A stretch of 64,000 nucleotides of DNA, taken from contig NC_135549.1 of NCBI RefSeq assembly GCF_964340395.1, forward strand, positions 16,531,842-16,595,841. The letters run 5' to 3'. This stretch comes from Glandiceps talaboti (Eukaryota > Hemichordata > Enteropneusta > Spengelidae). Position 1 is the first letter of the stretch. Each line of letters begins with the position of its first letter. Position numbers and translations under genes: made by a program. The notes under the pieces are model-generated. The model had not been told where the DNA came from, ran no database searches, and worked only from the letters and a program-made list of their open reading frames with translations. This document shows, piece by piece, positions 8,333 to 57,900 of this stretch.

Positions 8333-9118
8333 CTGACAGGCATTATACAAAAGTTGATGTTCGAACTTTTTCACTCCAAGAATGTTCTGAAACATTTCAT
8401 ATAATTGCTCTTTGCTTAGAATAAGCTCAGATGCAGCTGTGGCTGCCAGCCTTTGGGGCTGTTTTCTTGGATCCTCTTCACCTCTATAAATAGCATCAAA
8501 CTTTGCCATCCAAGAACTCAGAACGGTCTCCTTGCTGAGGCCATCTATCTCCGGCAAACTTCTCACCCTCTTTTCGATGTTATTTTTAAAGACCTCCCTA
8601 AAATCATTGGAGGAGCAACCCCCACTCTGAACCATCATAGCCACGCGGTCACTTTTCAAGAATACTTCGAAATAACTCTGCACGGCATTACAAAATGCTT
8701 CGTCTGCTACTATTTGTGTTTCCCCGTTGATGAAAGCACGGAATCTCTCTTTGATCGTCTCGAGTTGCTGTTTAGTAACTTTTGTCTGTCGCCTGGCCAT
8801 GTCTGTCGGCTGCTTGGCGTTGAATGGATACGCAACACATCTTGCAACGAACACATACAATTGCAATCGTTTCTTTCTGTCTTCTTCTTCTCTTTCAAGT
8901 CGTTCAGCCTCTTCTCTTTCCTTTTCGCTGATGACCGACGGGCTTGGACTGGCCGGACGGGCAATACTCTGACCCCGGGTTTGTGCTTGTAAGGAGTCAT
9001 TGCTCGACGCACTAGTACGAATGGTACCTGTCTGGCTGGGTACAGACAAAGTGTCTGTTGTTTCGTCTTCCAGTGTCTCATTCTCCGAATCCTCTTCGCT
9101 CGACGATGGATCTAACAT
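8333..9118 (-). CDS. CADPS: CADPS (CAPS) first coding exon, partial gene
   Basis: This exon encodes residues 1-262 of calcium-dependent secretion activator, a priming factor for dense-core vesicle exocytosis. I recognise the conserved start MLDPSSSEE, the RPSPSPSV-like segment before a charged helix, [59 protein letters not shown] and [10 protein letters not shown]. All are nearly identical to vertebrate CAPS. The start at 9118 is chosen over an in-frame ATG eight codons upstream because MLDPSSSEE is the family N-terminus. The exon ends after CAG at 8333 with donor GTTGGT, where the family sequence continues on another exon. The C2, PH and MUN domains would lie outside the window. The serine- and glutamate-rich N-terminal 30 residues resemble the casein-kinase-2-type acidic patch of mammalian CAPS. 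Confidence 0.96.
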
Positions 9119-31710: not shown

Positions 31711-31764
<54 letters not shown>

Positions 31765-37700: not shown

Positions 37701-40700
37701 AGTCTGGTCTATATACATCATTTACATCACCCAGGAAGCTTTTTGTTGTGTCTCCTGATACACGGAATAGCTGTCATGTTGGACCAGTAACAAACAGTAG
37801 TAAGACAAGTGTTGTTGATACACCGCCACCGCCGCCACCCATAAGTTCGTCGACGGAAGTTTCGCTGAAGCCTGTTGTTGTGAGCAATGCTAAAGTAGAG
37901 GAAGACAATGTTGTTGTTAGTAACAGTGGTATTGATGATAGCAAAGAAGTATCTGTTTCATGTGTGTCATCAGTTGAGAGTACAAGTGCAAGTAGCCCTG
38001 CTTCAAGTAGCCCAGTGTCAAGCAGCCCAGTTTCAACGTCCAGTTCCCCTGTGAATGTATCCAGCAGCGTAACCTGCAGCAGTGAAGTTACATCCGTATC
38101 ATTGCAAACAGTGTCGTCAACATCGGTGGCACCTGTGGTGGCATCACCCGTATGTCCATCACCATCAAGTACATCTCCGTCTACCAGTATGCCACCTCCA
38201 GGGTCTAACACAACAAGTGCATCACCAGCCACTACCCCAGTAAAAAGAAAGGTAACTACTGTGTTAGTTTATTTACTGAAACCCAAAGTCGTCAAATTCC
38301 TGAGTGCTCATATCATAGCATGCAGGGCCAATTCTTTGGGAAATCAAATAGGTTTCTTACCAAAAGGGCATTGTTACTTCTCAATAACATTGCTATTGAT
38401 AGGAAATAACTAACAGAACTTACTCAATAAACTTTGCTATTCAGTTGTATTCATGAAATGATAAGAATGAGTACTTGCAATTTAGTTACAAATAAAAACT
38501 GTCCAAATATCAGTTATTGTTCGTGGATTGAATTTGTCACTATGAAGTGGCACAAATTGTAATTGTCCTGAGTTGATTCATACTTAGTGACTTTGCATCC
38601 GTTACATTGTATATTGTGTATTTTAACTCTAAACTATGTATTTATTATAAGTTAGTACACATTGACTGGCCTGATTATGATCTGTTAACAGGGCACAAGC
38701 TAGTGAGAACTTTTGGAAATCCTTTAAACTGAACTCTGTTGAGACCATCCAGTTTTACACTGTAGTCAACAATTATATATCAGCCAAAGAAAGTGACCTA
38801 AAATGTGGTATTTGCACTAAAATTTGTATGCACCAAAATAAATCAATTCACAGTATGTGTAAGAGTTATGACAGTAGATTATGACAGTGGATTATTAGAA
38901 ATGTCTCCTCTTTGCATTCCTAGAATAACTTCTCTATTCTATTTTTTCAGGTTTCACTTCTTGAATATAGAAAGCGTATGACAAGTAGGAAAGAGAAGAG
39001 TCAGACCCCAAGTTCAACGGCTGTAAGTACATCATTGGTCACAGCAACATCGACAACAGCTGCACCAAGCACAACATCAAGCAAGTCAGCAGACAACCCT
39101 GACATCACCAAGTCACAGGCCAAACCCATCCCAACATTGGCTCCATTACCTTTGTTTGAACCCATCAGCCCTGCAGAGGACAAACTGGACAACAAAGTAC
39201 CACTGCCACTGCCAATCAAGAAAATTATATCCCAAGGCAGCCCTTTACTTGTGAAACAGAAAGAAAAGAAAGAGGAATCAGAAGTGCAATGGTGAGTAAA
39301 ACAACCTTGGTTAGATTAGTTTAAATGTTGACGTTTGAAAGATACTAGGGAGTGAAATGTGTGACAGACACACTAACATTGCCACTAATTTGTCATGTAC
39401 TTGATCAGTCGTTCAATATTATCATAGTGTATTGCATGTTAGTAGTATTCATGACTGTTAGGTGGAAGAAAGAAGTACTTTACAGTGAGAGAAAGAAGTA
39501 TGGTCAAATTTTACATTTAGTTCTTAACATTTGTTCAATCGATCTACATGTTCAACCCTGTTAAAAAAGAAACCATTAAAATGGTCTTTAATCTTCTTTG
39601 AAGTAACTGTGTCAATCATGAGATAGGGCGTGATCAAATAACTAAACATTATATACGCTTGGGATTATGTTGCAGGAAACCAAGTACACCAGAGAGGAGC
39701 AGAGAAGATCCTTTGGAAAAGATACGAAGGGATGTTGATATAACAAACAGACAAAGAGAAAGGAGAGATTCTGGTAGTCTAAGACAGAAAGAAGAACTTG
39801 TTTGCTCACCACTTAAAAGGCCGGGATCTCCTCCACTACCACCACCACCACCTCCTGTGAAAATAAAGAAAGTGAATCCTGCATTGAAGCTGCAAATGCC
39901 ACCTCCTCCACCTCCTAAAAATGGACTTGATAGAATACAAAGTAAGTCTTTTTAACATTTCTGTTGTGCAGTTGCACTTGGAAGAAATCAAAGTGGGTCA
40001 CTGTTTTGAAATTAATTGACTGCATTGATTTCTATTAGATGAGAGAACGAATGAACATTTTCAAAACCCTCCTTTATATTAAGATGGATTGAAAAAAAAA
40101 ATCAATGTTGGTTACCGTTACTGTTTTAAATTTATTGTCAAAGTCAGTTTCCATAGATAGGAGAGTAAATTGGATATTTTCCATATGTCTTGTGCACTGA
40201 GATGAGGTAACCTGAAAGGCTTTGTTATGCATACCAGTGTGTGCTTGCACTGGTGCAAGCACATACTATTGGTATTTGTAATGCAATGCAATATCCCAAA
40301 ATATTGCATATTGTATGTAAATGAGGGTGTAGTCTTTTCCTTACACATGAAATCAAGTGATAACACAGTCTTATTTTTACTGAAGTTTGCAGTATTGGAT
40401 AAACATGTGTAATAATAACAGAATCCTGTGATGTGTGAGTGCCAGTATTTGGTACCCATGGGTATTTTCACTCTTACTTGCAGTGTTTTTTGCTGCTTGT
40501 GAAAGTACAGCCACAGGGACCAACACAAGCATTGTTGCAAATACCCCAAATTCACCACACTGGCACTCATGTTACATGGGATTCTGTCATATTATCGTGT
40601 ATTTCTGTGTTACTAGAATTAGATGTAATAACTGTTATACTCATGATGACTTGTTCTGTATTGTCCCAAAGATGATGTGCTGGTAGAACCAGAAGTCAAT

Positions 40701-41321
40701 GGAAATGGTAAACATACTGTAGGACGAGGACATGGCTTTCAACAGGTGAGCATACCTCAGAGACCAAGAACAACACATTGTTGTAGATTGTAGTTTTCAA
40801 GAATTTTTCCCCAACAAGAACAAAGATAAATTCCACAAAATGTTCATTCTAACCTGCAATCCACAATCATGTGTTTTAGTCCCTGTATTTGTCTGCATGA
40901 AAAATATGGTGTGAATAATTCCAAGCACAAAAATGTTTAAAAAGGAAATAAAATTGAAATCCAGTGTTGTTTGTTTGGAAAACTTACCAGGGTCACATTA
41001 TCCAAGGTATGTAGTCTTGGTTGGTTTTTAATTCAGTGACTAATTGTAAAACTTACCAGGGTCACATTATCCAAGGTATGTCGTCTTGGTTGGTTTTTAA
41101 TTCAGTGACTGATTGTAATATCTTGTTATTTGTGTATTTCATACAGCCTCCACCACCACCCCCTAGGCAACCCCCTTCTCAACATCAGCCTCACCAGCAA
41201 GCGTCACAACAACCTCAGCTTCAGCAGCAATACCAACAACCATACCAGCAGCAAACCCAATCATACCAGTATCCACAACAGTACCAACAACAGCAACAAC
41301 AGCAGTATCCACAGCAGCAGC

Positions 41322-41352
<31 letters not shown>

Positions 41353-41773
41353 GCAGTATCCACAGCAACAGCAGCAGCAACAACCGTATAACTTCAATAG
41401 TTACGGACAAGGCTACGGGGACCAAAAAGTGCAGCAGCAGCAGCAGCAACATTACCATCCACAGACACAGCAATACCAACAGCCAGCAGCAACAACAACA
41501 GCATATCAGCAGCAACAGTATCCTCAGCAGCAACCTCAGCTTCCGTATCAACAGCAGCAATCCCAACAACAACAACAACAACAACAACAGCAGCAGCCAC
41601 AACAACAACAACATCACTCGTATCAACAGCAAAAACAACAACTGCAGCAGCAACAGCCACAACAACAACAACAACAACAACAACAGCAGCAGCAACAACA
41701 ACAACACTATCAGGGCTATGGACAGCAACATTATACTTCATATTCACAAAATGGTGGATTTTACCAACAGTAA
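23761..41773 (+). CDS. KMT2E: KMT2E/SETD5-type PHD-SET chromatin regulator, complete, 23 coding exons
   Basis: This is the single counterpart of vertebrate KMT2E (MLL5) and SETD5, and of fly UpSET: nuclear proteins acting at active promoters, with a PHD finger binding methylated H3K4 and a divergent SET domain. Exons: 23761-23834, 24600-24777, 25837-26000, 27582-27769, 28359-28531, 29036-29133, 30009-30281, 30630-30747, 31240-31349, 31818-32052, 32768-33166, 33536-33630, 33984-34155, 34504-34722, 35116-35319, 35446-35611, 36000-36289, 36497-36574, 36842-38251, 38951-39291, 39676-39941, 40672-40745, 41147-41773. The sum is 5,952 bases, 1,983 residues plus stop, and every phase closes. KMT2E is about 1,858 residues. 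Order: MSI start, His-rich stretch, PHD (about 136-180), basic linker, SET (about 323-475), [10 protein letters not shown] helix, proline/serine-rich tail with VSLLEYRKR, and a Gln-rich end. The N-terminus and PPPTPP segment favour KMT2E over SETD5. Confidence 0.93.
24600..24777 (+). CDS. KMT2E: KMT2E-like exon 2, histidine-rich N-terminus
   Basis: This exon encodes residues 25-84. It begins with the PES motif that follows MAAGSE in vertebrate KMT2E and ends with LGLPYQ, equivalent to IGLPYA. Between them a CAT/CAC-rich stretch encodes runs of His broken by Pro and Asn. Human KMT2E has a shorter SHHSHS here. The acceptor is TTTCAG and the donor GTATGC. The next exon begins [13 protein letters not shown], matching the human DHNYGARPPPTPP. 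Confidence 0.9.
26188..26540 (+). repeat. 60-base minisatellite in KMT2E-like intron 3
   Basis: Three consecutive units with an exact 60-base period are nearly identical, and two or three more diverged or shortened copies follow. Each has AAGTGGCTCATAGGACTGTC followed by AGAGAGA. A degenerate unit at about 26065-26105 lies upstream, separated by a (TGTA)n run at 26107-26187. The array translates as repetitive peptides in several frames, but it is intronic and flanked by the splice sites of exons 3 and 4. Confidence 0.9.
27582..27769 (+). CDS. KMT2E: KMT2E-like exon 4, PHD finger
   Basis: Together with RCIC at the end of exon 3 this exon gives a C4HC3 PHD finger: Cys137, Cys139, Cys151, Cys154, His159, Cys162, Cys176 and Cys179. 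The DDGYMICCD and CSVWQHVEC segments match human KMT2E almost exactly. Asp144 and Trp157 align with the residues I recall as contacting trimethylated H3K4 in human MLL5 (Asp128, Trp141), so histone reading is probably retained. The exon ends in phase 1 with donor GTAAAT. Confidence 0.95.
30009..31349 (+). CDS. KMT2E: KMT2E-like exons 7-9, SET domain
   Basis: Exons 30009-30281, 30630-30747 and 31240-31349 encode the SET core: [50 protein letters not shown] and [10 protein letters not shown]. The cysteines [11 protein letters not shown] follow in exon 10. Active SET enzymes have an NHSC-x-PN motif; here, as in KMT2E and SETD5, it is RRSCSPN. The upstream GxG cofactor motif is also not recognisable. 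The domain is therefore probably weakly active or inactive and may serve as a scaffold. Confidence 0.93.
31705..31780 (+). repeat. (AC)n microsatellite in KMT2E-like intron 9
   Basis: A dinucleotide AC run with a few interruptions ends about 40 bases before the exon 10 acceptor at 31817. It is probably length-variable. Confidence 0.9.
32768..33166 (+). CDS. KMT2E: KMT2E-like exon 11, Glu/His repeat and basic helix
   Basis: The exon encodes residues 538-670. The first half contains an acidic EQ/EH dipeptide repeat encoded by GAACAT hexamers (about 32907-32982), a coding microsatellite absent from the vertebrate proteins I remember. The second half has [20 protein letters not shown] and [10 protein letters not shown], matching the conserved [14 protein letters not shown] helix of KMT2E. 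It is in phase 0 at both ends. Confidence 0.92.
33536..33630 (+). CDS. KMT2E: KMT2E-like exon 12, followed by a GC-AG intron
   Basis: The exon encodes [10 protein letters not shown] to RRRSAKR, part of the basic segment of KMT2E. Its donor is AAAGAG followed by GCAAGT. Only the GC donor gives phase 2, which is needed to join the next exon at 33984 in the frame reading [18 protein letters not shown]. The nearby GT option reaches a stop in the next exon. The intron is thus GC-AG with an otherwise perfect donor consensus. Confidence 0.85.
34504..34722 (+). CDS. KMT2E: KMT2E-like exon 14, in-frame cassette with no known counterpart
   Basis: A 219-base open exon, phase 0 on both sides, sits between PTKK (exon 13) and [10 protein letters not shown] (exon 15). 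In vertebrate KMT2E those segments are contiguous (PKTKKHLVNEWL). The cassette encodes 73 residues including [13 protein letters not shown] and [10 protein letters not shown]. Splice sites are good (TTTGTAG acceptor, GTAGAC donor). Skipping it keeps the frame, so it may be alternatively spliced. I recognise no domain. Confidence 0.7.
36842..38251 (+). CDS. KMT2E: KMT2E-like exon 19, large low-complexity exon
   Basis: This 470-codon exon is rich in Ser, Thr, Pro and Val and has no recognisable domain. It spans the disordered middle of KMT2E/SETD5 between the SSPD/SSPES segment and VSLLEYRKR. Notable stretches are two near-repeats of VKCEP (residues about 1197 and 1213 by exon count) and a Ser-Pro repeat field near 37990-38090. 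It ends PVKRK before donor GTAACT, just like the PQKKK that precedes VSLLEYRKR in human KMT2E. Confidence 0.9.
40981..41118 (+). repeat. 69-base tandem duplication in KMT2E-like intron 22
   Basis: Two nearly identical 69-base units (AACTTACCAGGGTCACATTA onward) lie back to back, ending about 28 bases before the final exon acceptor at 41146. The second copy may hold the branch-point region. Confidence 0.9.
41147..41773 (+). CDS. KMT2E: KMT2E-like final exon, glutamine-rich C-terminus
   Basis: The exon encodes 208 residues to the stop TAA, beginning [10 protein letters not shown] and dominated by CAA/CAG-encoded Gln with Tyr, Pro and His, ending NGGFYQQ. Human KMT2E has a Pro-, Gln- and His-rich disordered C-terminus here but not such Gln runs. 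The codon mix of CAA and CAG argues for an old, partly stabilised tract. The antisense and shifted frames give long low-complexity ORFs that are artefacts. Confidence 0.92.
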
Positions 41774-43515
41774 AAGCAATGTAAATAGTTGAGAAGAAAA
41801 GGGTAATGGAGAATCTTGTACGAAGAGGAACAAAAAGAAGAAAAAAACAAACAAAAAGAATACAGTGAATATGCTGTGAAATTCAGCCTATATTGATTAT
41901 TACTCTATAGAAAATCACTAACTGTGATTGATCTCAATGTGTTGTAAATGTCATCCACTGAGGTCAAACTTCAAAGGCCATTGTGTGGGCCAAGTCAGAA
42001 CAACAAGGTGTAGTGAGTCTGACAAACTTGTACAGTAGCAGATATTATGTACCAGAGATATCTAAGCGAAAGCTATATAACATAGTGTGCACTTTATCAT
42101 TAGTCTCGTAGATAAGTAGGCAGTGTTAGATTTTTCTGTGATAGCCTAAGTTGATGTAGTGATTAGTTGTAGTGTTTTTGTTTTGTTTTTTTGCACTTGT
42201 ATATATGCACCATGTTGTAAGATACTTTATCCCATTTTGTATTGGGAACTTGTTTGTAATTGTCCCTTTAAAACAGTAACCAAAAAGAAGACTATATAGT
42301 GGTTTTATATAGTACCTGTACATTATATCTTTATAAAATACTTTATTAAAAAAAAAATCATGGTTTGGCCATCGTAATAGAAAAAGAAGAGTTTCTGGTT
42401 ATACACTAGGTCTGTTGTGCAGGCTCACAAAGCAGAAAAAGTTGTAGACATTTTAAACCAAAAAAAAATATATGTGGACACCTACAAAAATCAGTTGATT
42501 GCATTCCAAAATTCACCAATTTGATATGTTTTGTTAGACGTGAATGAAACCGATAGAAACCTGGAGCATTATGTCATAAAAATGAATATTTCCTTCTTTT
42601 TTCTCTTGAGGAATACATGCTCGGGTCCCAAAGTGTTTTGAAATGAAAGTGAATTGAAATAAAGCTGACATAAACAAGGAGAAAACATAGTAATCAAACA
42701 AAATTATTTGGTATTCTAGTGAGAAGCCAGAGACTCTTCTTTTTCTGTTCGCCTAGAATGTTCATTAAATTTGAATGTTATATTTTCATTGTTATTCATC
42801 TCTATTCAGAAGTTGTAGATTTTTGTTTTTTTTGTTGTTTTTTTTGTTTTGTTTTTAAAATTTGTTCTGTTTGTTCTCAGATCATTATTCTCACCGAATT
42901 CATTCATTCATTCATATTCATTCATTCATATGCTTCTGCTTCCGGGTCAGTTTCTTGACTACAGTTCTGTACAGTGCCCAATCTTACAGCTTCCTATAGT
43001 GCATGAGATTTTCAGGTTACGAGGACAAAGACTTCTGTAATGTACTGTTAGTTTCAGTGATGCCATGCCATGCCAGGAAAACAACATTGATAGTGATATT
43101 ATGTTGTGGTTTTATCGTAGAGCTAGAGATGCTCATGTGACTTGCATTACGATGTCCAAGGAGTGCTTGAGTGATGCATTATTTCATGTAGGAGTTTTAA
43201 AAAAAAAAGAGAGATCTTGTCTTGGCTCAGGACATAACAGAAAAAAATAGGCTTACTCAAGAGTTTTCATTGTATCTCGTTCTGAGGAGGTAGTGAAACT
43301 TTAAAAAAAAAAAAGAAAACGATTTTTAATCATGCTTGTGTACAGAAACAGGAGATTTCCTTTTCCTAGTTGTCCTTTTTACCATTGATTGCAGAATGTA
43401 CAGATTGTAGTTGTCTTTAAAAATTGCTCACATCCAGGGTGAAGGGCTCTTCTTTTTAGTGTTTTTTGCCCTTGTCACTTTTGCATGGTCAATAAAACCT
43501 TACAAAAGCGTTGTG
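41774..43515 (+). other. KMT2E-like 3' UTR with polyadenylation signals
   Basis: After the stop come AT-rich sequence, an ATTC microsatellite near 42899-42930 and candidate AATAAA signals at 42658-42663 and 43491-43496; another is at about 44072. The 43491 signal is followed by TTACAAAAGCG and a GT-rich stretch, so cleavage near 43515 is reasonable. No coding exon is supported. Confidence 0.5.
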
Positions 43516-46172
43516 ATAGTGTCAGGATACTTACAAGGTTCCTATATCTGATCCTGTACAAAAGTTCACTGCTGTTATTCAATTATATTGTGACAGAACA
43601 AGTCTAGAGGTCTAACTTTTGATAAAATAACTAATTGCCAGCATGCTCGGCCACTGTGTTGGAGAGATTTAATGATTTTTTTTTCATTTGCTGTTTGATT
43701 AATTTCTGTCACTTCAATGTTCCTCTGATGATTAATTCCGCTAGTTGTTGAATTTATTGTCACCCATCCCATCCTCTCATCATTTCATTTCACTTTATTT
43801 GTCCATCATTGACTATTGGCATGGGTCCCCTAGGTAAGTTTTAGCTTGTTGCTTTGCTCCTATATCTGTGAACATCACTGGTTGTTCATATCATCAGTAT
43901 GTGTTGTTATTGTTAGTCAAGTTAAGGGGTATCTGTCAAGCTTATGCCGCCTAGTTCTCTTAATGTAATCCTACTATCCTGTAAATGTACTTGCTTTACA
44001 TCTATTCAAAAAGATATATGTGTTACATACACCCAGCTAAGACCATACCGTGGAGATGATATTTTGTGTACAATAAAAGATGGTCGACAGACTGGCAAAA
44101 GTAAGAGAATTGTGTGACTGAGTCATTGCAAATATCAGGTTGGTTGTGTTCTCATGTTAAAGAAGTGTGGAAACAGAGACAAGATATATTGTTTTATTTG
44201 CTGTAAACCGTACCATAGCTGTGGTAATTTCAATCAGGAAGTCTCAATTTATAGTTAAAGTTCAAAAACAAAGGTGCACAGTGATAATAAAATCCCATAC
44301 CTCAGTGGGCTCAGATGGAATATCTTGCACAAGTTTTGCTTCATTTGAGCCGCATGCAAGTATGAGTCAAAATTTGCAGTGAATTAAATATAAGCAAGGT
44401 CAATGGCCTAGAGGAGCTAGTATAGGGATGATGTATGTCGTCGCGTCTCCCCCCCCCCCCCCCAGTCCCAGTGTGCTTCAGTCCTAACAGCTACAAATCT
44501 TGGCCACCTGTGACTTACTTTAACCAAACTTGGCTCAAATGTCAGACAATGTAGGGGTTTAACTTTACATATTCATGTCATTAAATTTTGCGACCTTGAC
44601 CATGGTAAAATAACACCCATATTTGTCATAGAAGTACACATTTATCCCTCCTACCTCAAAATGTTTAATGCATACAGATGGTAAACAAAGCATCTAACCC
44701 CACATGACATGATTATTATTACATTAACCATCATATTCATTGGCAATTAGCAGAAAATTTCTCAAATATTCAGAAAACCAAACTAAAATGAATATACAAT
44801 ACTGTATAATATCCTTTCATTTGTATGACATGTATTTTATAATAAGGCCTTGTTTGGTTCTGGTTACCCAACCCCTCCTAGTTTTTCATTGCCAATCTTA
44901 AATTTTTTTAATACGAATTTGAGAAAAAAATTATAAAATTGCAAAAATTGTGAAGTCTTGCAAGAAATAGTGGATGCCGAAACTGACATCGACTTCAAAG
45001 ACCATATTAAACTGTTTTTTCAATCTGTAATGGCTGTACATCTGATGAGAAGAAACCAATAACACGGCAACCATATGGAAAACAGCAGAAAACATAACTA
45101 ACCTGAACTAGAAACTCACACATGAAAAAAAAATGTAAAAAAAAAATAAGATAAAAAATCTACCTACCCCCACCTATTGGGAGCGTAAATCGGAACCTTT
45201 CAATTTTGTTATTAGGCCTAATGTACCCAACACATCTGAAAAATAAGACATGGGTGTTATTTCATGGTGATTTCGCATTTTGTGCCATCACCATCACCAT
45301 TACCACCACGGTGCACCACCACCACCACAACCTACCAGAAAGCCATACCCAAAAGAATTTACTGATTATTTATATAAACATTAATTTTGTCAGGGATAGG
45401 ACAAACTCTGAAGTCGGTGACGTCCGTCAAGCACCGATCCTTCGGATTCTTGTAGATTTGCATAATTAAAGCCAATTTTCGAGTTTTTTGATAACTTTTT
45501 TTTAAAAAAGTAACTCGTGATTTAAATTTATGGGATATGAATAATAGGTAATACTCGATCGTTTATATGAAATTTAATTTACATTTTAATGTCGCTTTCA
45601 ACAACTAGGGAAAACACCGAGTTGGAGTAATCATTATATACGTATACGTGTATAAACGTGTATAAATTACTATAAAGAAAGGGGTACAAAGGGTTCAAGA
45701 TTTACCAGTATACATCTGCAATGTTGACGGTACAAAACGCGAAAGCCAGAAGTTAAGTTTATCGCAACGGAAGCAATATCGAGACACGAAATTTACATGT
45801 ATTAACAATCAGTTACATGTAATATCCCTACTTACCTATATTATTTTATTGTAAAAGCGTTGTGTACGCCTACGGTGGAAGGGAGTTTTGAGGGGAAGTC
45901 CCTTCCTATTGACGTGGTAATAATTTATTCGTGTTTTACCACCCTGTCCTTTAGATAGCAGTTGAACTATGACACGGCATATTAGTGACAGCCAGATATT
46001 AGAATATAAGCAGGGATATAAGATAGAATGGAAATTGGAGCAAGTGTAACTTGGTAAGAAGCTTTCGGGTACGGTGGATTTCCAGGAATTGGTTCTTTCT
46101 CGGAAATCAGCACACACTTCACTCCCAGCCTGAGGATACCATCTTGCTAGCTTCGGGTACGGTTACTACGAA
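43516..46172. other. Intergenic region with a poly-C run and a transposon copy
   Basis: No gene is supported. The stretch holds a C run of about 14 bases near 44451-44464, the second copy of the TAGGCCT/GGTTCC element at 44844-45220, and a CAC/CAT-rich patch near 45280-45340. The last few hundred bases probably include the promoter of the CARD-DD gene. GCTTTCGGGTACGG or GCTTCGGGTACGG appears twice, near 46060 and 46150. Confidence 0.5.
44844..45220 (+). mobile_element. Non-autonomous repeat of about 370 bases, copy 2
   Basis: Second copy of the 5054-5423 element, in the same orientation. Its right end is better preserved (ATCTACCTACCCCCACCTAT then AATCGGAACC and TTATTAGGCCT). Its left end has AAGGCCTTGTTTGGTTC. 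The inverted AGGCCT and GGTTCC termini mark it as a terminal-inverted-repeat element without a transposase. Confidence 0.7.
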
Positions 46173-46208
46173 ATGTTCACACTACCAACTCGAGACATTT
46201 GCATGTAA
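46173..46208 (+). promoter_or_regulatory. Upstream ORF before the CARD-DD gene, ending ATG-TAA
   Basis: An 11-codon ORF starts at 46173 and ends at TAA 46206-46208. Its last sense codon is itself an ATG, so the leader also holds a minimal start-stop element. The main start at 46253 is 44 bases further on, in a different frame. Confidence 0.45.
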
Positions 46209-46252
46209 AAGTTCAACCACCTGAAGAATGGACCAGGTTCTATTACAAAGAT

Positions 46253-47627
46253 ATGGAGGAGAAACACAAGAAAGCTTTAACTAGTAAATGGGTAGATTTA
46301 ATATCACACATTGAGGTCAAATATTTATTACCACAACTGCAACAAGATGGTATTCTCACAACGTCGATGGCGGAAGATATTCTTGCTGCCACCACATCGA
46401 GGGAGAGGGCTCGTAATTTGCTTCACATGTTACCTACTCGAGGTCCAAATGCGTTCAGTTCGTTTGTGATTGCTCTAGGAAAGTACTATCCGTGGCTGAA
46501 AAACGAACTTGTCGCTGAATGCGGCGACGTAGGGTCACAGGTTGGAAGGGTTGTCGAAAAGTTGCCAACCCCAATAAAATGTACAGGTAAATGAAATCTT
46601 GCTCCTCATTGGTGAAACGCTCAGGATGAACTTGACAAGAACAAATACACGTACTATGGAAGTGGTGATAGATAACTTTGCTAAATGTCAAAAGAATGAT
46701 CTAATACATTTAAACAACAAAAATGAAGCTAGACCCGACACCCCTTGACTTGGAAGTGTTTGCAGGTCTTGTACTTCCGTGTTATAAATTACATGCATGC
46801 ATGACAATTTTCATTTTGTTCGAAGGCACCACTAGTCGGTCTACAGAAAAATAAATAAAAGAACAATAAATTCAGGATACTTAAAATTAAAGAATTATAA
46901 TGTTTTTAAATTTTGATTTTTGTTCATCATCTTGTCAGAGTGCAAACTTTCCACGTACTGAATTTGACTAGTGTACTGTTTACACGCTGACCTTCGACCC
47001 CAACCATGTATATGTGCCATGCACATGGTGCTACCGTTACCTAGCGAGGTGTACAAAGTACTATAGTTGTTACTAGGTAATTGACAAAGCTTCTGTACCA
47101 CTGTATGTAATCGTTACACAGCTGTGAAATAATACGTTCAAACAATTAGTATATTGCATGTACTTGAAAGTTGTGAAATTAAAATATTTTTGTATCACTT
47201 TTCAGACGAAAGTGATGCATCCGAGGGAGATGGAGCTGCATCAGACAGGGAAAGTCTTATTACAGTATCAGGCGCAGCCGCGTCAGCGAACAGCAGTTCT
47301 GGGATTGATTCTCATCTAGGAGGTATAACTTCTCGTTTGAGCCAACTTAGCATGACCCAGGGAATAGATAGAAGAGTCACGGAACAAAATCTACTGACAG
47401 TTGCTGAAAAGATGGGCGAAGAGTGGGAAGGAGTGGCAATAAAATTGGGATTTCAGAGCAACGACGTTTTTAGATTTAAGGAAGAAAATAGTACAGTTAA
47501 TGGGAAAATTTTCGCAATGCTTTTGAAGTGGAAGCGGAGAAGGGGTCACGATGCCACTGCTGAGAATCTTTGTAAGGAACTTAAAGATGCTGATGTAGAT
47601 TTAGATGTATATAAACATTTATGGTAA
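46253..47627 (+). CDS. CRADD: CRADD/RAIDD-like adaptor, CARD plus death domain
   Basis: Two exons, 46253-46586 and 47206-47627, encode 251 residues (human CRADD has 199). Residues 1-87 form a CARD: YLLPQLQQDGILT, a LLHMLPTRGPNAF motif (human LLDILPSRGPKAF) and YYPWLKNEL (human EFPWVREKL). A Ser-rich acidic linker follows, then a death domain at about 169-250 with MGEEWEGVAIKLGF (human LGPEWEPMVLSLGL) and AMLLKWKRR. CRADD joins caspase-2 through its CARD to PIDD1 through its death domain. The ATG at 46253 is the first in frame after an upstream stop. The intron is phase 1 (GTAAAT donor, TTTCAG acceptor). AATAAA at 47764 may end the transcript. Orthology versus an independent CARD-DD gene is unproven. 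Confidence 0.85.
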
Positions 47628-47641
47628 CGATGACGTTAATG

Positions 47642-47642
47642 C

Positions 47643-47685
<43 letters not shown>
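47642..47685 (+). repeat. (CAA)n microsatellite in the CARD-DD 3' UTR
   Basis: A pure CAA trinucleotide run of about 14 units lies 15 bases past the CARD-DD stop codon, inside the predicted 3' UTR. In other frames it gives homopolymer peptides, which are not real. Confidence 0.9.
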
Positions 47686-47771
47686 GTGCAAATGTAATGA
47701 TACATTGAACATTTCTTCGACTAGTCTGAAATATCGAGACGTTAGTCCACTTAATATGTAACCAATAAAAG

Positions 47772-47895
47772 GAATGAATGAATGAATGAATGAATGAATG
47801 AATGAATGGATGGATGAATGAATGAATGAATGAATGAATGAATGAATGAATGAATGAATGAATGAATGAATGAATGAATGAATGAATGAATGAAT
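47772..47895 (+). repeat. (TGAA)n microsatellite after the CARD-DD polyadenylation signal
   Basis: About 30 tetranucleotide units with one GGAT interruption follow directly after AATAAAAGG at 47764-47772. Long open frames across it on the minus strand are repeat artefacts. Confidence 0.9.
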
Positions 47896-48003
47896 AAACA
47901 ACACAATTAATCAATAACAAACATTATAGTTAGAATGAAAACTATCCTGAGACAGAAATAACGACTGTTCAAATTATTATTGAATGTAGGGGTTCTGAAC
48001 AAC

Positions 48004-48223
48004 CTGATTAAAATCTGATGTTAGATAGGCTGGTATTCCTGTATTTACCTTTATTCCATCGTTATTGCGTCTTTTACGTGAGTTTTTTTTTCCTGGTCGA
48101 ACGCCTTTCCAGTGGTTGGAAAGGCGTTCGACCAGGAAAAAAAACTCACGTAAAAGACGCAATAACGATGGAATAAAGGTAAATACAGGAATACCAGCCT
48201 ATCTAACATCAGATTTTAATCAG
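48004..48223. mobile_element. Near-perfect foldback element, arms of about 107 bases, 5-base loop
   Basis: From CTGATTAAAATCTGATG to the matching CATCAGATTTTAATCAG the two halves are reverse complements, with one length difference in a T9/A8 run and a GTGGT loop near 48112-48116. GGGTTCTGAA occurs on both sides in the same orientation (about 47990 and 48228), a plausible target-site duplication set four bases outside the arms. The near identity of the arms suggests recent insertion or gene-conversion maintenance. It has no coding capacity. Confidence 0.85.
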
Positions 48224-48481
48224 ATTTGGGTTCTGAATGTATTCCCCGTTTTAGTATAGTTCACGTGGCATGTCTATAAATGTCTGTAAATAAAATATGT
48301 AGCTGTAGTCTTTATTGCATAGATCCGTGTTTCAAGAAAGTGGTACGTTCCTTGGTCTTGATACATACATACATACATATGTAACGATATGTAAATTTTC
48401 TAAATCTAAATGTCTAAGCTTATTACTTGAAATGTATACGTCTCACACTCTTTGTCATAAAACCTGTTAGCATTTGGGTGT

Positions 48482-48770
48482 TTGAGACACACACAATTCT
48501 TGTTCGAAACACACACAATCCTTGTTCGAAACACACACAATCCTGGTCATAAGAGCTTAGCATTTGCCGTTTTGTGCAACAATTTACTCTAAAACAGGAC
48601 ACATCAAAAGATGCGTCAGTTCCAGGCGACAAAACAAGCACTCCAGTCGAAACCACACGCCAACTTGTGTCTGTATCAACTCTCATTGGCGGAACCCTTG
48701 ATGTCTTCTGTTTTAGAGTAAATTGTTGCAGAAAACAACAAAATGCTAAGCTCTTATGACCAGAATTGTA
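48482..48770. repeat. Foldback element with tandem 22- to 23-base units at its left edge
   Basis: Arms of about 70 bases (48538-48608 and about 48700-48770) are imperfect reverse complements sharing GGTCATAAGAGCTTAGCATT and CAACAATTTACTCTAAAACA. Immediately left, 48483-48545 carries two to three tandem units of ACACACACAA(T)TC(C/T)TTGTTCGAA. No protein-coding signal is present. Confidence 0.75.
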
Positions 48771-50144
48771 ATATGAATACCAAAATACCAGTATAATTTC
48801 TATTTTGAACAATATTGTAATCTTAAGCAAGTTTATTCGCTCAGAAACCCTTTATGCAGTGAACATTATTTTTTGAAACACCTCTGTGTGTGAACCCTTT
48901 AAAGTTGTTACTGAAATGTAAGGTTCCTCGTGTGCTCTGATGTACCGCCAAATAATATCAAAATGTATTTCGTTCGTTCTTCACTTTAAACTAACACTAT
49001 AATAGATTTTTAAAGGTCTTCAATTAATTTAAATGAACACTGGTGATGTGACAGAATTGTTGTGAAGGAGCTTTCAAATATCTACACAAATAAAGAAATC
49101 CTGATGATAGATTCTGAGAACGCTACATTGAATCAACTGCACTTACACGTGTAAAATACTTACTTTAATAACGTTGCGTTGCTCCAAGTTGAAACAGGAA
49201 AAAAACCGTTTAGTAATAAATATATAGAAATATATGTGAAACATGAAACGTAAGACCCAAGCTCTTTTTATAGAAATAGTTGGCCCTGAATAAACGAATG
49301 ATCCCATGTAATCCATATGATCGACTGATAAGATAATACTAATACAAGAGAGGGGGTTGAAACCCTATATCATCTATATAGAGTAGCGTGTTTATGGCGC
49401 TGTCGAGATACATCGGAGATAATTACCATGATTACGAGGGCTAGGAGGTACAACCAACTAACGATATATCTTGGCTGCGCCGTAAATAGGCTAATGGTAG
49501 AGGTAGTGTACTATACAACACTAAAGCAGGGCTACCTAGTATAATACAATATACCTTGGCGTCATATTCATTTTCTGCAAAATATATTTCACTTTCGATC
49601 TTTCGCCAACTTTTTGACGAATGGAACTCGTAACTTTTTAGGCTAAAATACTATTCAAAGTTGGTATTGCTATATCGAAATCAAAACAAAATCGCTAGTA
49701 CAAAGTTAATATCAATACATATACTAGTACTAAAGTTGATAAAGTTGTCATAATGATCAACCCTTTGATATTGTCGCGGTGTGCTCTCGTGACATTGCCT
49801 TCTAACTTCAAGATCTTCTGAACAAAGTTCCGGGTCAATGATTGTGACAATGTCCATATCCTATGATCTCAGGACAGTAACATTCTTTTGGTGGTCTGAA
49901 CTACTTTTTCCTTAGAGGCTGCCACGCATCGATTCTTTGGAAAGTTGGACCGGAAGTAGCAGAGGACAACTTTTTTACGACGATTGATGTCCTTATTGAC
50001 CTGAAATTACCTCTATTCAATAATTTGCATATTCATGAGTTTCGTCCGGCCAGATTTGTGTCACTTGAGTGGGGTAATGGTATGTGGCGGCAAGGCGTAT
50101 CACAGGGCAAAGTTCCTATACAAACACACCTTGTAAACATCATC
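48771..50144. other. Intergenic region upstream of the RING-DD gene
   Basis: I see no coding exon or structural RNA. The last 250 bases before 50145 should contain the promoter of the RING-DD gene. They include a GC-richer stretch around 49915-50060, but no motif strong enough to name. Confidence 0.4.
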
Positions 50145-50162
50145 ATGGACAGCCATGGCTGA
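50145..50162 (+). promoter_or_regulatory. Five-codon upstream ORF overlapping the RING-DD start
   Basis: ATGGACAGCCATGGCTGA starts ten bases before the main ATG (50155) in another frame and stops just inside the coding sequence. The main start has a strong context, AGCCATGG, so it probably wins. The uORF could still tune translation. Confidence 0.5.
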
Positions 50163-52357
50163 TGGTGCGTCAAAGTTTTTGGACGAAATCGACGAAGATT
50201 TTCTCGTATGTGCTATTTGTATGGAACAATACAGGAATGCAAAACTTCTTCCGTGTCTCCATACCTATTGTGAATCGTGTATAATTCCATTAATACGAGA
50301 AAGCGGTAAAATCAAGTGCCCTCTGTGTTCCCGGAAACATAACGTCCCACCTGGTGGAGTAAAGGAGTTTTCGACTTTTTTCTTCCTTAACCAACTTGTT
50401 GAACGTTTCCGAGACAGAGACAGAGTGTCTAAAAGTGACACGCCTGAAACAAAACGTACTTGCGAAAAGCCCGAAACACACCAAAGTGTACGCCCGAAAC
50501 GGGGTAACTGTGTTGATGTTGACGAACGAAACTTGGCGGACTTACCCAATCGTAATCCAAAGGTTGACGCGTTCGAGTCATTTATGAGAAAGCTTGAGGA
50601 ACTTTACCCAGGGTTAACTAGAGAAGAACTTATCACAAAAGTGAACAAAAGGGAAGAACTCCGGAGCAAGCATCTTATTCCCGAAGTCGGTTCCAAAGAG
50701 GAGAACCTGTCAACTCCGGTTACGTGTACAGGTAAAATGACAATTGTTGATAAACTTATAAATAGAATAGAAAGAGGAACGACATTACTAAAATAAAATG
50801 GAATATCTGTATGTAGTGTAGTTTATTTATTGCGGAAATAGGAAACTAAAAAGTAGAATACTTATAGATAATGTCGCGCTCTAGTTCTAGGTATGGGAGT
50901 AGATCGTTGTACAAATCAACTATGATGAATACTAATTAAAAGCTGATTTCTGAGTCAACAAGAGTGACTTCTCAGCTCAGTTCAGTGTAAGTGAATAAAA
51001 GCTAAACATGAATGTAAGCACAGACAAGTCTGTAATCATGTAAGTCGCATTTCTAGGTGTACTAAATATAGCTCGAGCAGCACAACTGTGACACTACTTG
51101 CAATTAATTCCATTTGCAGTTCCTGGTCTAGTATAGTGGGTTAATGCATCTGCAGTGTCACAATCAAGTTGCTAAGTGACATGTAAATATGTCTGTTAGC
51201 GGTTTGCAAGTTGCAAATGTAAATGCCCTGTTATCTATGGTAAATGCACCTTATGGGCTGGGCCATAAATAAACACTGTCAATGATCCAAAATTAATCTT
51301 AACAATTTTACATTATAACAAGAAATGATTGTTTACCAACAACTTGACTATATTCTATAGTGATCACATGGTGTATATTAATGTTGCACTAGCTGGAATG
51401 TTTGTAAATATATTTTTGTTAAATATAAAGTTGCTCATAATATTGTATACCCTGCAAAGTATTGAATCACATATAGGTAAAACATATTTGTGTAGCAGTA
51501 CACACAGTATGGAGCAATATATCCAATCAAGTTGATTTTTTTGTTGATTTACACTCCCAATGAATCACTGTTTCAAGATATGTCTATACTACAGTCCTAT
51601 AGATAAATTAGACTTCTAATTGACAAGTACAATGTTTAATTATTGGTATTTTAACAAATTTCCAGTGAACGTATATTGTTGCTTGTCTGATTAAAAAATA
51701 CTACCCCAGTTACCCCTAGAGCAGGTTTATGAGATTCAAAATATGTGAAATCATCTATCTGTGTGTGTTGAATTTTGGGAGAAATATTATACTGTTTACT
51801 ATAACAACTTCTTGAAAATACACTATGATCTGGTTCAGCACAAACATCTATGAATAATAGATATTGAGATTACATCTAGAAAACAATTTACAAAACATAA
51901 CTTGTACTCTGTTGGATGACTATACTATATGCATGTACAATTATTCCTGTAATCTGACCCTTTCTTTGTTTTCTGTCAATACCATGCAGACATAAGCGTT
52001 GGTTCTTCGCATGCTGCACACACCAATAGTGATTCTGACCTAGGAAGATTGACATCTCTATTAGGTCACCTAAGCATGAATCCAGCAAATGAGAGAAGAG
52101 TCACTGAACAAGATCTGTTATCAGTTGCTGACAAGATGGGAGAAGATTGGGAGTCTGTTGGAATAAAATTGGGATTTAAGAATCACGAGATTTACAGATT
52201 TAAGGAGCAACATAGAGGAGAGACTCAGAAGATTTTTGCGATGCTCATGAAGTGGAAGAAGAAGAAGGGTGCCCAAGCTACTGTTAAAAATCTGTGCCAA
52301 GAACTTTGTACGGCTGGAGTTGATCTAGACAGCTATAACCATTTAGTGAAGAAATAA
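50155..52357 (+). CDS. RING finger plus death-domain protein with a CARD-like half domain
   Basis: Two exons, 50155-50731 and 51990-52357, encode 314 residues. Residues 19-58 form a TRIM-type C3HC4 RING: Cys19, Cys22, Cys34, His36, Cys39, Cys42, Cys55, Cys58. GGVKEF and FFFLNQLVERF follow, as in TRIM proteins, but no B-box. Residues 126-160 (NLADLPNRNP, DAFESFMRKLEELYPGLTRE) resemble the second half of the neighbouring CARD. The death domain (about 230-312) is about 61% identical to that of the upstream CARD-DD gene by hand count. Both genes splice at TGTACA-G with a phase-1 intron, so the second exons are duplicates. The RING suggests E3 ubiquitin ligase activity on death-domain partners; this is inferred. 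I know no vertebrate gene with this architecture. AATAAA at 52450 may end the transcript. Confidence 0.9.
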
Positions 52358-52782
52358 TTTCAGCTAGAACAGATGCGTGTTTATGAAATTATGTAGAAGG
52401 AAAGTTACAGTGCCAGAGAAATTGATTTCACAACACACCCAAAATATGGTAATAAATAATGTAAATATTGGGGCATTTTGCATATTGGTCAAATAATTAG
52501 CCAAACTTAAACTGTAGGTATGGCTGTACATTTCAGCTTTAATCTTTAACATTTACTTTCCCAAAATATGATAATTGTCTAACAGTGCAGTTAAAAGTGA
52601 AAACAACATACAAACAGAAACTGAGAACGAGACACACAAAAGTCTCAAAGGTGTATGACAAGAGACTGTGAAGTATTCTGGTGGCTCAGTGATGGTATAA
52701 AGCTCTAGTTGTAGTACCAAAACTTGCAGCAATATCTACACTAAGATAGACACATTTCAAGAAGTATGTCATGGGTAGTTTC

Positions 52783-53088
52783 AATCTGATGTGGTGAAAG
52801 CAAGTAGATGTCTTCGTTATTTACCTCTATTTCCATCGATTTGTGTCGTTTGTTTTGTTCCGGGGTGATCACCGCCTTCCCACAATCTGTGCTGACACAA
52901 ACTACCACAATCTGGTTAATATCTGATGTGGTGAAAGTGGGTCTTTATTTACCTCTATTTCCATCAGGTGACCATTCGAAACAAAACAAACGACACAAAA
53001 TGATGGAAATAGAGGAAAATAAAGACATCTAGCTGCTTTCACATCAAATTTTCATCAGATTGTGGTAGTTTGTGTCAGCACAGATTGC
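52783..53088. mobile_element. Compound foldback element related to the 48 kb element
   Basis: The block around 52889-52970, with CAATCTGTGCTGACACAAAC and TTTACCTCTATTTCCATC, is mirrored by 52970-53088. A further partial copy of one arm lies at 52783-52870 (TCTGATGTGGTGAAAG, TTTACCTCTATTTCCATC, TGTGTCGTTTGTTTTGTT). The core TTTACC(T/C)TATT(T)CCATCG also occurs in the arm of 48004-48223, so the two are probably the same family. It has no coding capacity. Confidence 0.7.
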
Positions 53089-54923: not shown

Positions 54924-57900
54924 TCACCTGTTTGTGAAATCTTTATGAACATTAACTAGTTTGATTTGTGTGTGTGGATTATCTGTAAGCCAAGCTTGGA
55001 TCATAGCAGGGTGTCTCAGATCACCCTCCAACCAAATTGATCCTTTTGGTTTCAGTAATTGTCTTGCCAGTTCAATGATTCTTTGTGTTACCTCTAAACC
55101 ATCATTTCCTCCTTCCAATGCCCTGTGATCTTCATACCTGGACAACAACAAGGTTTGTGTAAACATGGAGAGGTCATTTTGAGATGAACAGTCTCATAGC
55201 TAGCATTCACACTTCTGCATGAGATAAATTAATAAAACACTGCAGATATAAAGGCCAGTACTTTATAATGTATAAGATTTCATGCATCTAATATTAAAGG
55301 CCAGCATTTCAATTAAGGTTCTTGTATTCATGTTATGTTATCAGTGGAGCCAATAGGCATACATAGCACCCTTCATATGTTCTGAACAACCTGTACCAGA
55401 CAACTATTTTTCACATGAAAGTTTGAATTTAAAAGTAAAATATGGTTTACCTGATAACCTCTGGTGCCAATTCTTGCATATCTTCTTTAAAGATGTATGG
55501 TGGATTACTAACAATGACATCATAAGATCCAGATATACTGTCTGGTACACTGTTTGTATCTGTCAACTCACATCGGTGAATGGACAGTCTATCAAATACA
55601 CCTAATCTGTAGTGTACATGTATTAAAGGGGAAAAAGTTGAAGTTTGGTCTCTTTTTTATGATATTTATTGTTGTTCCTTATCAATAAATAGTTGTTTGT
55701 ATGATAGAAATATACTTTAAATGCCAAAGGTATTCATTTTTTGGCAGTTAAACATATACTGTATCACAAGATTATTTAGTTTGGCCACTAGGGACATTTG
55801 TTCAGTGGCAGCCTTTTGACCAGAAGTAAGGGCCATGACAGTTGAGTACTATGGCCTCCTTTGACAAAAATTCATCATTTCCTAGTGTTTCACTGGAATA
55901 TTACTGGCATTCTCAACCTGTTGAAAAAAATCTGAAAACTTTGTTTCATACCACATATAATATTCAGGATATCAAAGAGTTCTTTAATCCAGATATTGGT
56001 GTACTGTCGTGTGATTTTAGCCCCATGAAAGAATTTTTAAAAATGACTGCAAGGCTGGTAAATAGAAAATGGTATATCAATGATGACTATCTTTCTGCAG
56101 ATACAAGGATGGTGAGCTGAATGATATCAGAAATCTCTACTCTGGCATGATAAAATCACAACTTCAAACTACCAAATCAATTTGCCTTGTGAGCAAGTGA
56201 ATTGGTTGAACCATACTAGGCAGACAAAACAAAACACTGCTGTCAAAATAAAGAAAGTGTTAATCTTACCTTTTTGCATTTAAGGTGGTGAGTTCAACTG
56301 CTTCAATACTTTGATCTATGGCTACTCCTGTACTCTGTCATGAAAATTGAGAAAAAAGTGTAGAGTCAACTAATAATCGGAGTATATATAACAACATTAA
56401 GTTCTATCTCTGGATCATCCACGTGTGATTTTATTTCAATACGTGATACATATCAGATTACTTATAGTAGGTTTAACACCATCAGACTGTGACAAATTCT
56501 ACCATCATTAGAGGGCATGTAGTAGAGAGCATATACCTCTACCAATGGCGCATTCTCCTAATTAGCCAGTTAGACAATTCAAAAACCAAAGAAGGGTGCC
56601 CTCTAGAGTTGAAGCTCGATGGCTGATTTGGCACATCCCATCCATTTGAATTCAGAACCAGAATCAAATCTCAACTACTCTTTAAAGAAGTGTCATCCTT
56701 GCTTCAAGGCAATCTTTTCATGAATTTACATCTGAACTCATTCATAATTTGTTGAGGTATCTCGTATATCCTGCTACTCGCCATCAGACAAACCAAACAG
56801 GATTATAAACATTACCTCTGTCCATATACCACCACAACCACCACCACCAGCAGCAGCAGAAGTAACAACAAACTAAGTATTCTGAGTTATGGGTAGCTTT
56901 TGAAATATCCTCTACTCATTCTAGTCAACAAAATTTTTCATTTGTCCTTTCCGAGCGTCAACATGTGAGTGCATGATATAATGATGTACATACCTGTGGA
57001 AGTTCATCAAGTAGAGACAATGATATTGCACCACTACCACAACCAACCTCCAGAAAGTGAATCTGTGGTTTCTTACTGTGGAACTTTAGAATAAAACCAA
57101 CCAATTCCTGACACACACAAAAAAAATTATACAAAATGAAATTGTTCTACTTCTATCTATCAACAAAATAAAACAAACAATTGATATTTTGGGATGAATA
57201 GTTTATCGTTGGTTTGTGTAGACACCACGAATATTAAAAGTTTGAAATTTGACTGTTTTTCTGTTTTACTACATGTTTGTTTCAGTCTTATACTGACCTG
57301 ATCATGCCCTGTTAACGAACAGCACAAAAGCTAGTCAGAACTTTACAAAACCCTTTATTAAGTTGAATTTTGTTAGCACCATCCAGTTTTCATCTGTGTC
57401 ACAGTTATTTCAGTCAAAATTGTTCCCTTGATAAAATTCTCACCTCAGTTTCTGGTCTAGGTATAAATACAGGTGGTTTCATACTGAGAGTTAGATTTCT
57501 AAAATCCCATTCACCAAGTATGTACTGCACTGGCATCCTACAAAATATTCAATAACGTCAACAAATTGTGTTTGTCTTCTATATGGTAAACATGCAGCTG
57601 AACATTGTAGAAACTATAATGAAGCCAATTACAATTTTGACTGGTATTAACTGCCTCCTGTGTTGTAGAAAATCTAAGTTGTTTTTTCAAAGGGGGGGGG
57701 GGGGGGGAGGGGACCTTGCTAGAGATATATTTGGGCATCTATTCATCAAGACAGTATTGTAATAGTTTAATGAGTTCATATTCATATTACAAATTTGAGT
57801 AAAATATATCATTTGGATGGCATAGATTGATAGAGCAAACATGTGAGGTATTTTTTCACTAATATTGAGAATTAGACAATGAACTCAAAGCACATTAAGG

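Follow-up and report, generated by a model that had tools for sequence, protein, structure and literature searches.

Two neighbouring CRADD-type death-domain genes in Glandiceps talaboti, one with a TRIM-type RING apparently in place of most of its CARD

Introduction

In PIDD1, leucine-rich repeats (LRRs) and ZU5 domains precede the death domain, and in cIAP1/2 a CARD and a RING are found in one protein. CRADD/RAIDD is the adaptor of the PIDDosome that joins a CARD to a death domain (DD), according to the accessible part of PMC7290664. When expressed in human cells, MLKL N-terminal domains from certain echinoderms, urochordates, and cephalochordates were lethal; a hemichordate was tested as well and is not named among the active species in the accessible part of PMC11476962. 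Here we describe two neighbouring genes of the enteropneust hemichordate Glandiceps talaboti, called CARD-DD and RING-DD after their domains. They lie in a stretch of 64,000 bases (the window; C1:16531842-16595841) of a 590 Mb animal assembly of 47 contigs, in which contigs are numbered C and loci L. CARD-DD resembles CRADD. RING-DD appears to be a CRADD-derived adaptor in which a TRIM RING has replaced most of the CARD, a reading that draws on the probable remnant of a CARD exon after its RING.

Results

Structure of the two genes

Both gene models are exons rebuilt from the genomic sequence. CARD-DD (+ strand) is 46253-46586 joined to 47206-47627, with a product of 251 residues; RING-DD lies in tandem on the same strand as 50155-50731 joined to 51990-52357, with a product of 314 residues. 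Their features, in window positions, are as follows.

46253..46586, + strand: CARD-DD exon 1, Met1-Thr111 plus one base; end of linker LPTPIKCT
46271-46507 (residues 7-85), + strand: CARD inside CARD-DD exon 1; best solved relative the RAIDD CARD 3crd, E 5.4e-10
46587..47205, + strand: CARD-DD intron, 619 bases, phase 1, GTAAAT...TTTTCAG
47206..47627, + strand: CARD-DD exon 2 with stop; Ser/Gly-rich linker and death domain
47388-47594, + strand: CARD-DD death domain, by Pfam; best solved relative the CRADD death domain 2of5, E 4.2e-8
50155..50731, + strand: RING-DD exon 1, Met1-Thr192 plus one base
50154..50409, + strand: putative TRIM-derived stretch of RING-DD exon 1, with DNA likeness to TRIM genes L029-L032; C3HC4 RING at 50209-50328 and flanking helices
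50527..50730 (residues 125-192), + strand: putative CARD remnant and linker in RING-DD exon 1, collinear with CARD-DD residues 54-111 up to the common splice donor
50732..51989, + strand: RING-DD intron, 1258 bases, phase 1, GTAAAA...CATGCAG
51990..52357, + strand: RING-DD exon 2 with stop; linker and death domain
52109-52318, + strand: RING-DD death domain, by Pfam; taken alone, best solved relative CRADD, E 4.4e-8

Both introns are in phase 1, the codon being split after its first base, and both joins give an open frame. The donor and acceptor sites are TGTACAG/GTAAAT and TTTTCAG/AC in CARD-DD, and TGTACAG/GTAAAA and CATGCAG/AC in RING-DD. Pfam matched CARD (E 7.5e-17) and Death (1.4e-9) in CARD-DD, and zf-C3HC4 (1.4e-10) and Death (3.3e-13) in RING-DD. 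A preliminary description of this DNA had given each gene two exons, with first exons that end at TGTACA-G in phase 1 and encode different modules, a CARD and a TRIM-type RING, and had proposed a Pfam search of both proteins. The coordinates, donors, and open frames agree with that account; all four domains exceeded the curated cut-offs, and the best relative of the RING was TRIM56. As far as the sequence tells, the locus is no artefact, and it is no ordinary CRADD either.

A probable CARD remnant in the RING exon

Beyond the preliminary description, we found that the remainder of the RING exon resembles the end of the CARD exon. In a collinear alignment, residues 125-192 of RING-DD pair with residues 54-111 of CARD-DD, with 25 of 57 residues and 92 of 171 bases identical; the aligned part runs from the last portion of the CARD through the linker to the CT/G splice junction at the common donor. 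The local score of this match was 72, whereas the highest among 5000 shuffles of the RING-DD stretch was 47 and the maximum among 1273 segments from loci without a CARD was 45. The corresponding stretches of four TRIM relatives scored 22-31 against the CARD exon. The human RAIDD CARD alone scored 49 with the same RING-DD stretch, a value reached by 3 of the 5000 shuffles. The Pfam CARD model had no match in RING-DD. Because the tail of the RING exon resembles the end of the CARD exon, the RING appears to have taken the place of the first part of the CARD in a duplicated CRADD gene, and the simplest reading is that the front of a TRIM gene replaced the front of the duplicated CARD exon. The preliminary description had the RING take over the N-terminus: the takeover by a TRIM RING stands, but the RING did not arrive as a separate exon; it shares its exon with the CARD remnant.

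The RING itself was compared with solved structures, among which TRIM56 was best (4.2e-21), followed by TRIM2 and TRIM3. Its four nearest relatives in the genome, on C20 and C22, are intronless TRIM genes with open frames of 502 to 781 codons. The DNA likeness of RING-DD exon 1 to TRIM genes L029-L032 (72.6-74.0% identity) starts at 50153-50155, coinciding with the RING-DD start codon, and ends at 50402-50409; protein identity with the four relatives is 54-64% across the aligned stretches. All eight zinc ligands are kept in RING-DD (C19, C22, C34, H36, C39, C42, C55, and C58), and comparison of the RING with the four TRIM relatives gave nonsynonymous divergence (dN) of 0.18-0.25 and synonymous divergence (dS) of 1.27-1.89. 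L029, the one relative scanned by Pfam, has a RING, two B-boxes, and NHL repeats; Pfam found no B-box, coiled coil, or NHL repeat in RING-DD. The RING of RING-DD thus appears to come from the intronless TRIM family of the same genome.

The window locus was the only one at which RING and death-domain matches lay no more than 50 kb apart, in a comparison of at least 150 RING matches (from 343 candidates) with at least 148 death-domain matches. The assembly holds a large TRIM-type RING gene family, many of its open frames being 700-840 codons long.

Relationship of the death domains

The death domains of CARD-DD and RING-DD are identical at 51 of 84 aligned residues (61%), the value that the preliminary description had reached by hand count. 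Exon 2 is identical at 226 of 317 bases (71%), and a DNA comparison of 46000-48300 with 49500-53000 gave, besides exon 2, one trivial hit of 21 bases. By way of background, the 5253 pairs of 103 death domains from this genome had a median identity of 22% and a 95th percentile of 32%; 46 of the pairs reached at least 50%, many of them from a single tandem array. A tandem array on C6 (C6:14933272-15102416; L015-L020, L023) holds death domains 82-99% identical to one another, inside open frames of 254-286 codons.

Two trees were built. The large one contained 107 death domains, namely 103 of the 148 own-genome matches and four human pieces; three identical death domains and loci without a death-domain match of at least 60 residues were dropped. 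The small one used 24 of these rows. In the 107-row tree CARD-DD and RING-DD were sisters (support 98/88); a death domain on C13 came next (100/93), and human CRADD after it (84/84). The corresponding values in the 24-row tree were 96/74, 95/92, and 86/86. The tandem position and the common exon-1 tail give independent support for the sisterhood of the two genes. Compared alone with solved structures, the RING-DD death domain found CRADD (4.4e-8), then PIDD1 (3.8e-7), then RIPK1 (1e-6). The tandem duplication put forward in the preliminary description is borne out by the exon 2 DNA likeness together with the sisterhood in the 107-row tree.

For exon 2, dN was 0.30 and dS 1.04 between CARD-DD and RING-DD; the C13 copy gave dN 0.34 and dS 1.66 against RING-DD, and a saturated dS against CARD-DD, the high dS values being rough. 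Both CARD-DD and RING-DD appear to be under purifying selection, and intact frames at such a distance argue against decay.

CARD-DD as a CRADD candidate

Against solved structures, the CARD of CARD-DD found RAIDD first (5.4e-10) and its death domain found CRADD first (4.2e-8). The human RAIDD CARD scored 135 with this CARD and at most 95 with 21 other CARD-like rows of the genome. RAIDD (135) was in turn the best partner of the CARD, with a runner-up at 128, so that the two are reciprocal best matches among the rows recovered, six of the 26 Pfam CARD matches in the genome having been left out of the comparison. A CARD tree of 19 rows, from which four rows of less than 80 residues were dropped, did not resolve the branching. 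On these matches the CARD-DD gene is a good CRADD candidate, as the preliminary description had proposed. Its architecture is not unique in the genome, because C14:1718601-1720100 (747 bases between match starts) and C8:13346001-13348100 (1442 bases), loci L138 and L139, hold further close CARD/death-domain pairs. The domains of those pairs are not CRADD-like, and the window gene is set apart by its likeness to CRADD and not by its architecture.

A third copy predicted to be joined to an MLKL-type domain

Upstream of the C13 death domain (C13:19959590-19959847, minus strand), at a distance of approximately 1.6 kb, lies an exon that encodes a Pfam MLKL_N match at 2.9e-18, exceeding the cut-off (gene approximately 19959587-19961884; L011, L051). 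In the gene model a phase-1 donor and a phase-1 acceptor join in frame, and the first solved structure found by the death domain was that of CRADD (4.6e-10). One type of death domain thus appears to follow a CARD in one gene, a RING in another, and an MLKL-type domain in a third, the join being in the same phase each time.

MLKL_N had six matches in the genome. A second one lies near another death domain (C18:18783398-18786775; L134, L148), the two starting approximately 3 kb apart; this six-frame match contains one internal TGA, and the death domain beside it falls outside the CRADD-like trio.

Candidate partners

In the 107-row tree, ten death domains of this genome grouped with that of human PIDD1 (83/64), next to the group formed by the trio and CRADD. 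The ten sit on C5, C4, C26, C6, C10, and C13 (L095, L106, L022, and seven others). All three that were inspected (L135-L137) are preceded by ZU5-like exons. When the upstream exons were joined, each of the three matched Pfam ZU5 at E of 0.5 or less, the first at 6.1e-6, which exceeds the cut-off, and the best at 1.7e-7; scans of single exons had given two weak matches below the cut-off. A joint ZU5-like profile found ankyrin chains among solved structures (4.2e-12) and also 4d8o (9.7e-12), a chain that holds a death domain too. No LRRs were seen by eye in the 6 kb upstream of the inspected domains. A search for Peptidase_S68, the domain of PIDD autoproteolysis, gave no match, but the positive controls were equally silent. 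At two of the three inspected loci a long coiled-coil-like frame was seen by eye upstream.

None of 57 caspase-domain matches lay within 490 kb of any of the 26 CARD matches; both counts are lower bounds, and diverged or intron-split CARDs could escape such a scan. The caspase-2 half of the PIDDosome-like reading in the preliminary description is therefore unsupported. Across the whole assembly, no caspase-domain match came within 20 kb of any death domain on the list. A CARD exon on C24 (12.73 Mb) was considered as part of a caspase and set aside as unsupported, with no caspase match nearby. The caspases of this genome may use other or diverged prodomains. In the amphioxus relative of caspase-1/2 a DED and a death domain replace the CARD (PMC3196919, accessible part); loss of CARD-caspases in this animal would therefore have a precedent.

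Other features of the window and assembly

Inverted repeats at window 48001-48226, 48563-48742, and 52814-53087 (99%, 82%, and 90-92% complementary) look like fold-back mobile elements and lie between and after the two genes. A long GAAT tandem repeat, seen by eye at approximately 47770-47895, directly follows CARD-DD. By eye we also recognized exons that we take to be CADPS-like (8318-9166, - strand), exons of what is presumably a SETD5/KMT2E-like SET-domain gene (approximately 29900-41800, + strand), and an exon presumed to be of the HemK methyltransferase type (54924-55193, - strand).

The mitochondrial contig C40 (51,222 bases) contains three copies of cox1, spaced 15,435 bases apart, and is an assembly concatemer or a multimer. 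Its cox1 uses TGA 13 times and ATA four times, with AAA, AGA, and AGG unused; the ATA codons stand mostly at positions that we presume to be isoleucine in other animals. Such usage agrees with an ambulacrarian genetic code and, given the absence of AAA, with an acorn worm.

Discussion

We propose a tandem duplication of a CRADD-like CARD-DD gene. In the copy lying downstream, an intronless TRIM gene would then have supplied its start codon, its RING, and the helices flanking the RING, which took the place of the 5' part of the CARD exon; what remained of the original copy was the end of that exon with its splice donor, the phase-1 intron, and the exon for the death domain. We regard this origin as highly probable. 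The encoded protein would have lost CARD-mediated recruitment and retained the CRADD death domain; RING-DD should therefore join whatever death-domain assemblies its neighbour takes part in, PIDD-like ZU5-DD proteins being the most likely platform. RINGs of TRIM proteins act as dimers through the flanking helices, and these are kept in RING-DD. Clustering on the platform would bring the RINGs together, with ubiquitin transfer to members of the complex. The outcome could be either that CRADD-type signalling is capped or that it is diverted to a ubiquitin-based (NF-kB-like) output; the sequence cannot tell which. This role of RING-DD as a ubiquitin arm on a death-domain platform is a tentative proposal. 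Origin and mechanism taken jointly are the best explanation that we have, and one that we somewhat favour.

Several observations weigh against this explanation, and they are considered here with the alternatives on which they bear. The first concern the trees. The bootstrap of the 107-row tree was unsettled. In approximately unbiased (AU) tests on the 24 rows, the C13 copy could be paired with CARD-DD (p 0.134) or with RING-DD (p 0.143), one member of the trio could be paired with human CRADD (p 0.117-0.225), RING-DD could be placed with PIDD1 (p 0.099), and the trio with RIPK1 (p 0.094), none of these seven groupings being rejected. Holding CARD-DD with human CRADD was likewise not rejected on the 107 rows (p 0.454). 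When human CRADD was left out of the 24-row set, placing either gene with the C13 copy gave p 0.153 and 0.152. Within the trio, the 89 alignment columns favour this branching order but do not prove it. The phylogeny proposed in the preliminary description, built here from the genome itself and the four human pieces, thus returned the two genes as sisters in the best trees but left alternatives that the AU test does not reject.

The second group concerns the partners. RING-DD may be functional on partners other than a PIDD-like platform, such as complexes of RIPK1-like, receptor, or IAP-like type that signal to NF-kB; this is doubtful, and is the alternative that survives best. With the full RING-DD sequence as query, the RIPK1 death domain (1.2e-7) came slightly ahead of CRADD (1.7e-7), the proximity scan found no CARD-caspase, and at least 148 death-domain matches are present in the genome. 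The PIDD1 grouping is unstable between the two trees: in the 24-row tree the ten PIDD-like domains stayed together (98/98), and PIDD1 stood apart at an open fork. Ankyrins have the ZU5-DD layout too, and inspection by eye showed no LRRs, so that these genes count only as candidates for PIDD-like proteins. On the other side, the death domain taken alone ranks CRADD ahead of PIDD1 and RIPK1, and both trees place the trio beside CRADD, though its union with RIPK1 was not rejected. The claim in the preliminary description that both genes share PIDD-like partners is plausible but less well supported than its other points: the 107-row grouping and the ZU5-like exons at all three inspected loci speak for it, and the 24-row tree, without a PIDD1 grouping, does not.

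RING-DD could also be an inert decoy that fills death-domain sites without a CARD or ligase activity and so damps its neighbour. RING-DD has a serine directly after its last RING cysteine, where TRIM56 and TRIM2 have an arginine, and most of the CARD is gone. Of the TRIM relatives, L034 and L036 have arginine at this position, and L029-L031 have leucine or serine. RING-DD retains all eight zinc ligands together with the flanking helices, and its dN against the TRIM relatives is low; we consider a decoy unlikely.

Plain exon shuffling would have brought a RING exon to a duplicated death-domain exon, so that RING-DD never had a CARD and the likeness of its tail is due to chance or to a short conversion at the donor. 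The generic CARD profile misses the tail: its E on the remnant was approximately 1, and two profiles ranked the remnant third and fourth in a set of 2002 sequences. The remnant therefore shows up chiefly when the exon is set beside that of the neighbouring gene, and the case for it lies in pairwise matches and in position. The identity of 92 of 171 bases is modest, and the C13 copy shows that such a death-domain exon can be joined to a very different first exon. Against this account stand the pairwise score, well above anything in the shuffles or in the segments from loci without a CARD; the collinearity over 57 residue pairs up to the common donor; and the match of the human RAIDD CARD alone to the same stretch. 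We judge exon shuffling improbable, and prefer replacement of the front of the CARD exon. A wrong gene model or a decaying locus, in which the RING exon and the exon at 51990 come from separate transcripts or the gene is silent, is very improbable: the joining of the exons is predicted from sequence alone and spans an intron of 1258 bases, but the frames are open, the phase matches, the splice signals and the context of the start codon are good, and dN is far below dS in both halves of RING-DD.

A broader scheme would have one ancestral CRADD death-domain exon given three outputs, a CARD for proteolysis, a TRIM RING for ubiquitin, and an MLKL-type four-helix domain for membrane killing, all recruited to an expanded PIDD-like ZU5-DD platform as an apoptosis/ubiquitin/necroptosis-like switch without RIPK3. 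We offer it as a speculation that is rather unlikely to hold in full.

The replacement proposed here illustrates a route to a new death-signalling protein, in which one domain is partly overwritten within a single exon and the partner-binding domain is kept. If it is correct, a known death-signalling hub may have gained a built-in ubiquitin arm. It allows a test of whether the death-domain surface that brings CRADD to a PIDD-type platform can also bring in ubiquitin ligases or membrane-killing domains, and it bears on how apoptosis, NF-kB signalling, and necroptosis in deuterostomes came to have adaptors in common.

The preliminary description knew no described counterpart, and neither a RING-DD relative of CRADD nor an MLKL_N-DD gene was found in the literature searched, which covered few subscription papers, the genome searches being confined to this animal. 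Neither appears in the accessible parts of PMC11476962, PMC3196919, PMC8917759, PMC8195603, PMC7290664, PMC7053062, PMC9334734, and PMC11507063. The nearest described proteins compare as follows. Molluscan IAPs with a death domain and a RING (PMC8917759, accessible part) likewise combine a RING with a death-fold domain in one apoptosis-related protein. IAPs differ in having BIR repeats, of which Pfam found none in RING-DD, and a C-terminal RING, whereas the RING of RING-DD is N-terminal and TRIM-type and its death domain is CRADD-type. TRIM-NHL proteins (TRIM2/TRIM3/TRIM56-type) share with RING-DD the C3HC4 RING of TRIM type and its flanking helices, but not the B-boxes and NHL repeats that L029 carries. 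The C13 gene shares the MLKL_N domain with MLKL (PMC11476962, accessible part) but, as modelled, ends in a CRADD-type death domain rather than a pseudokinase. Closest is CRADD/RAIDD. CARD-DD has its N-terminal CARD and C-terminal death domain in the same order (PMC7290664, accessible part); CRADD/RAIDD is the best solved-structure match of both domains and the favoured, though not proven, tree placement of the death domain, and the system differs in that no caspase match was found near a CARD match in this genome. RING-DD shares with CRADD/RAIDD a death domain of the same type and, it appears, the tail of the CARD exon; it differs in that the first part of the CARD seems to have been lost, no complete CARD is present, and a RING stands at its start.

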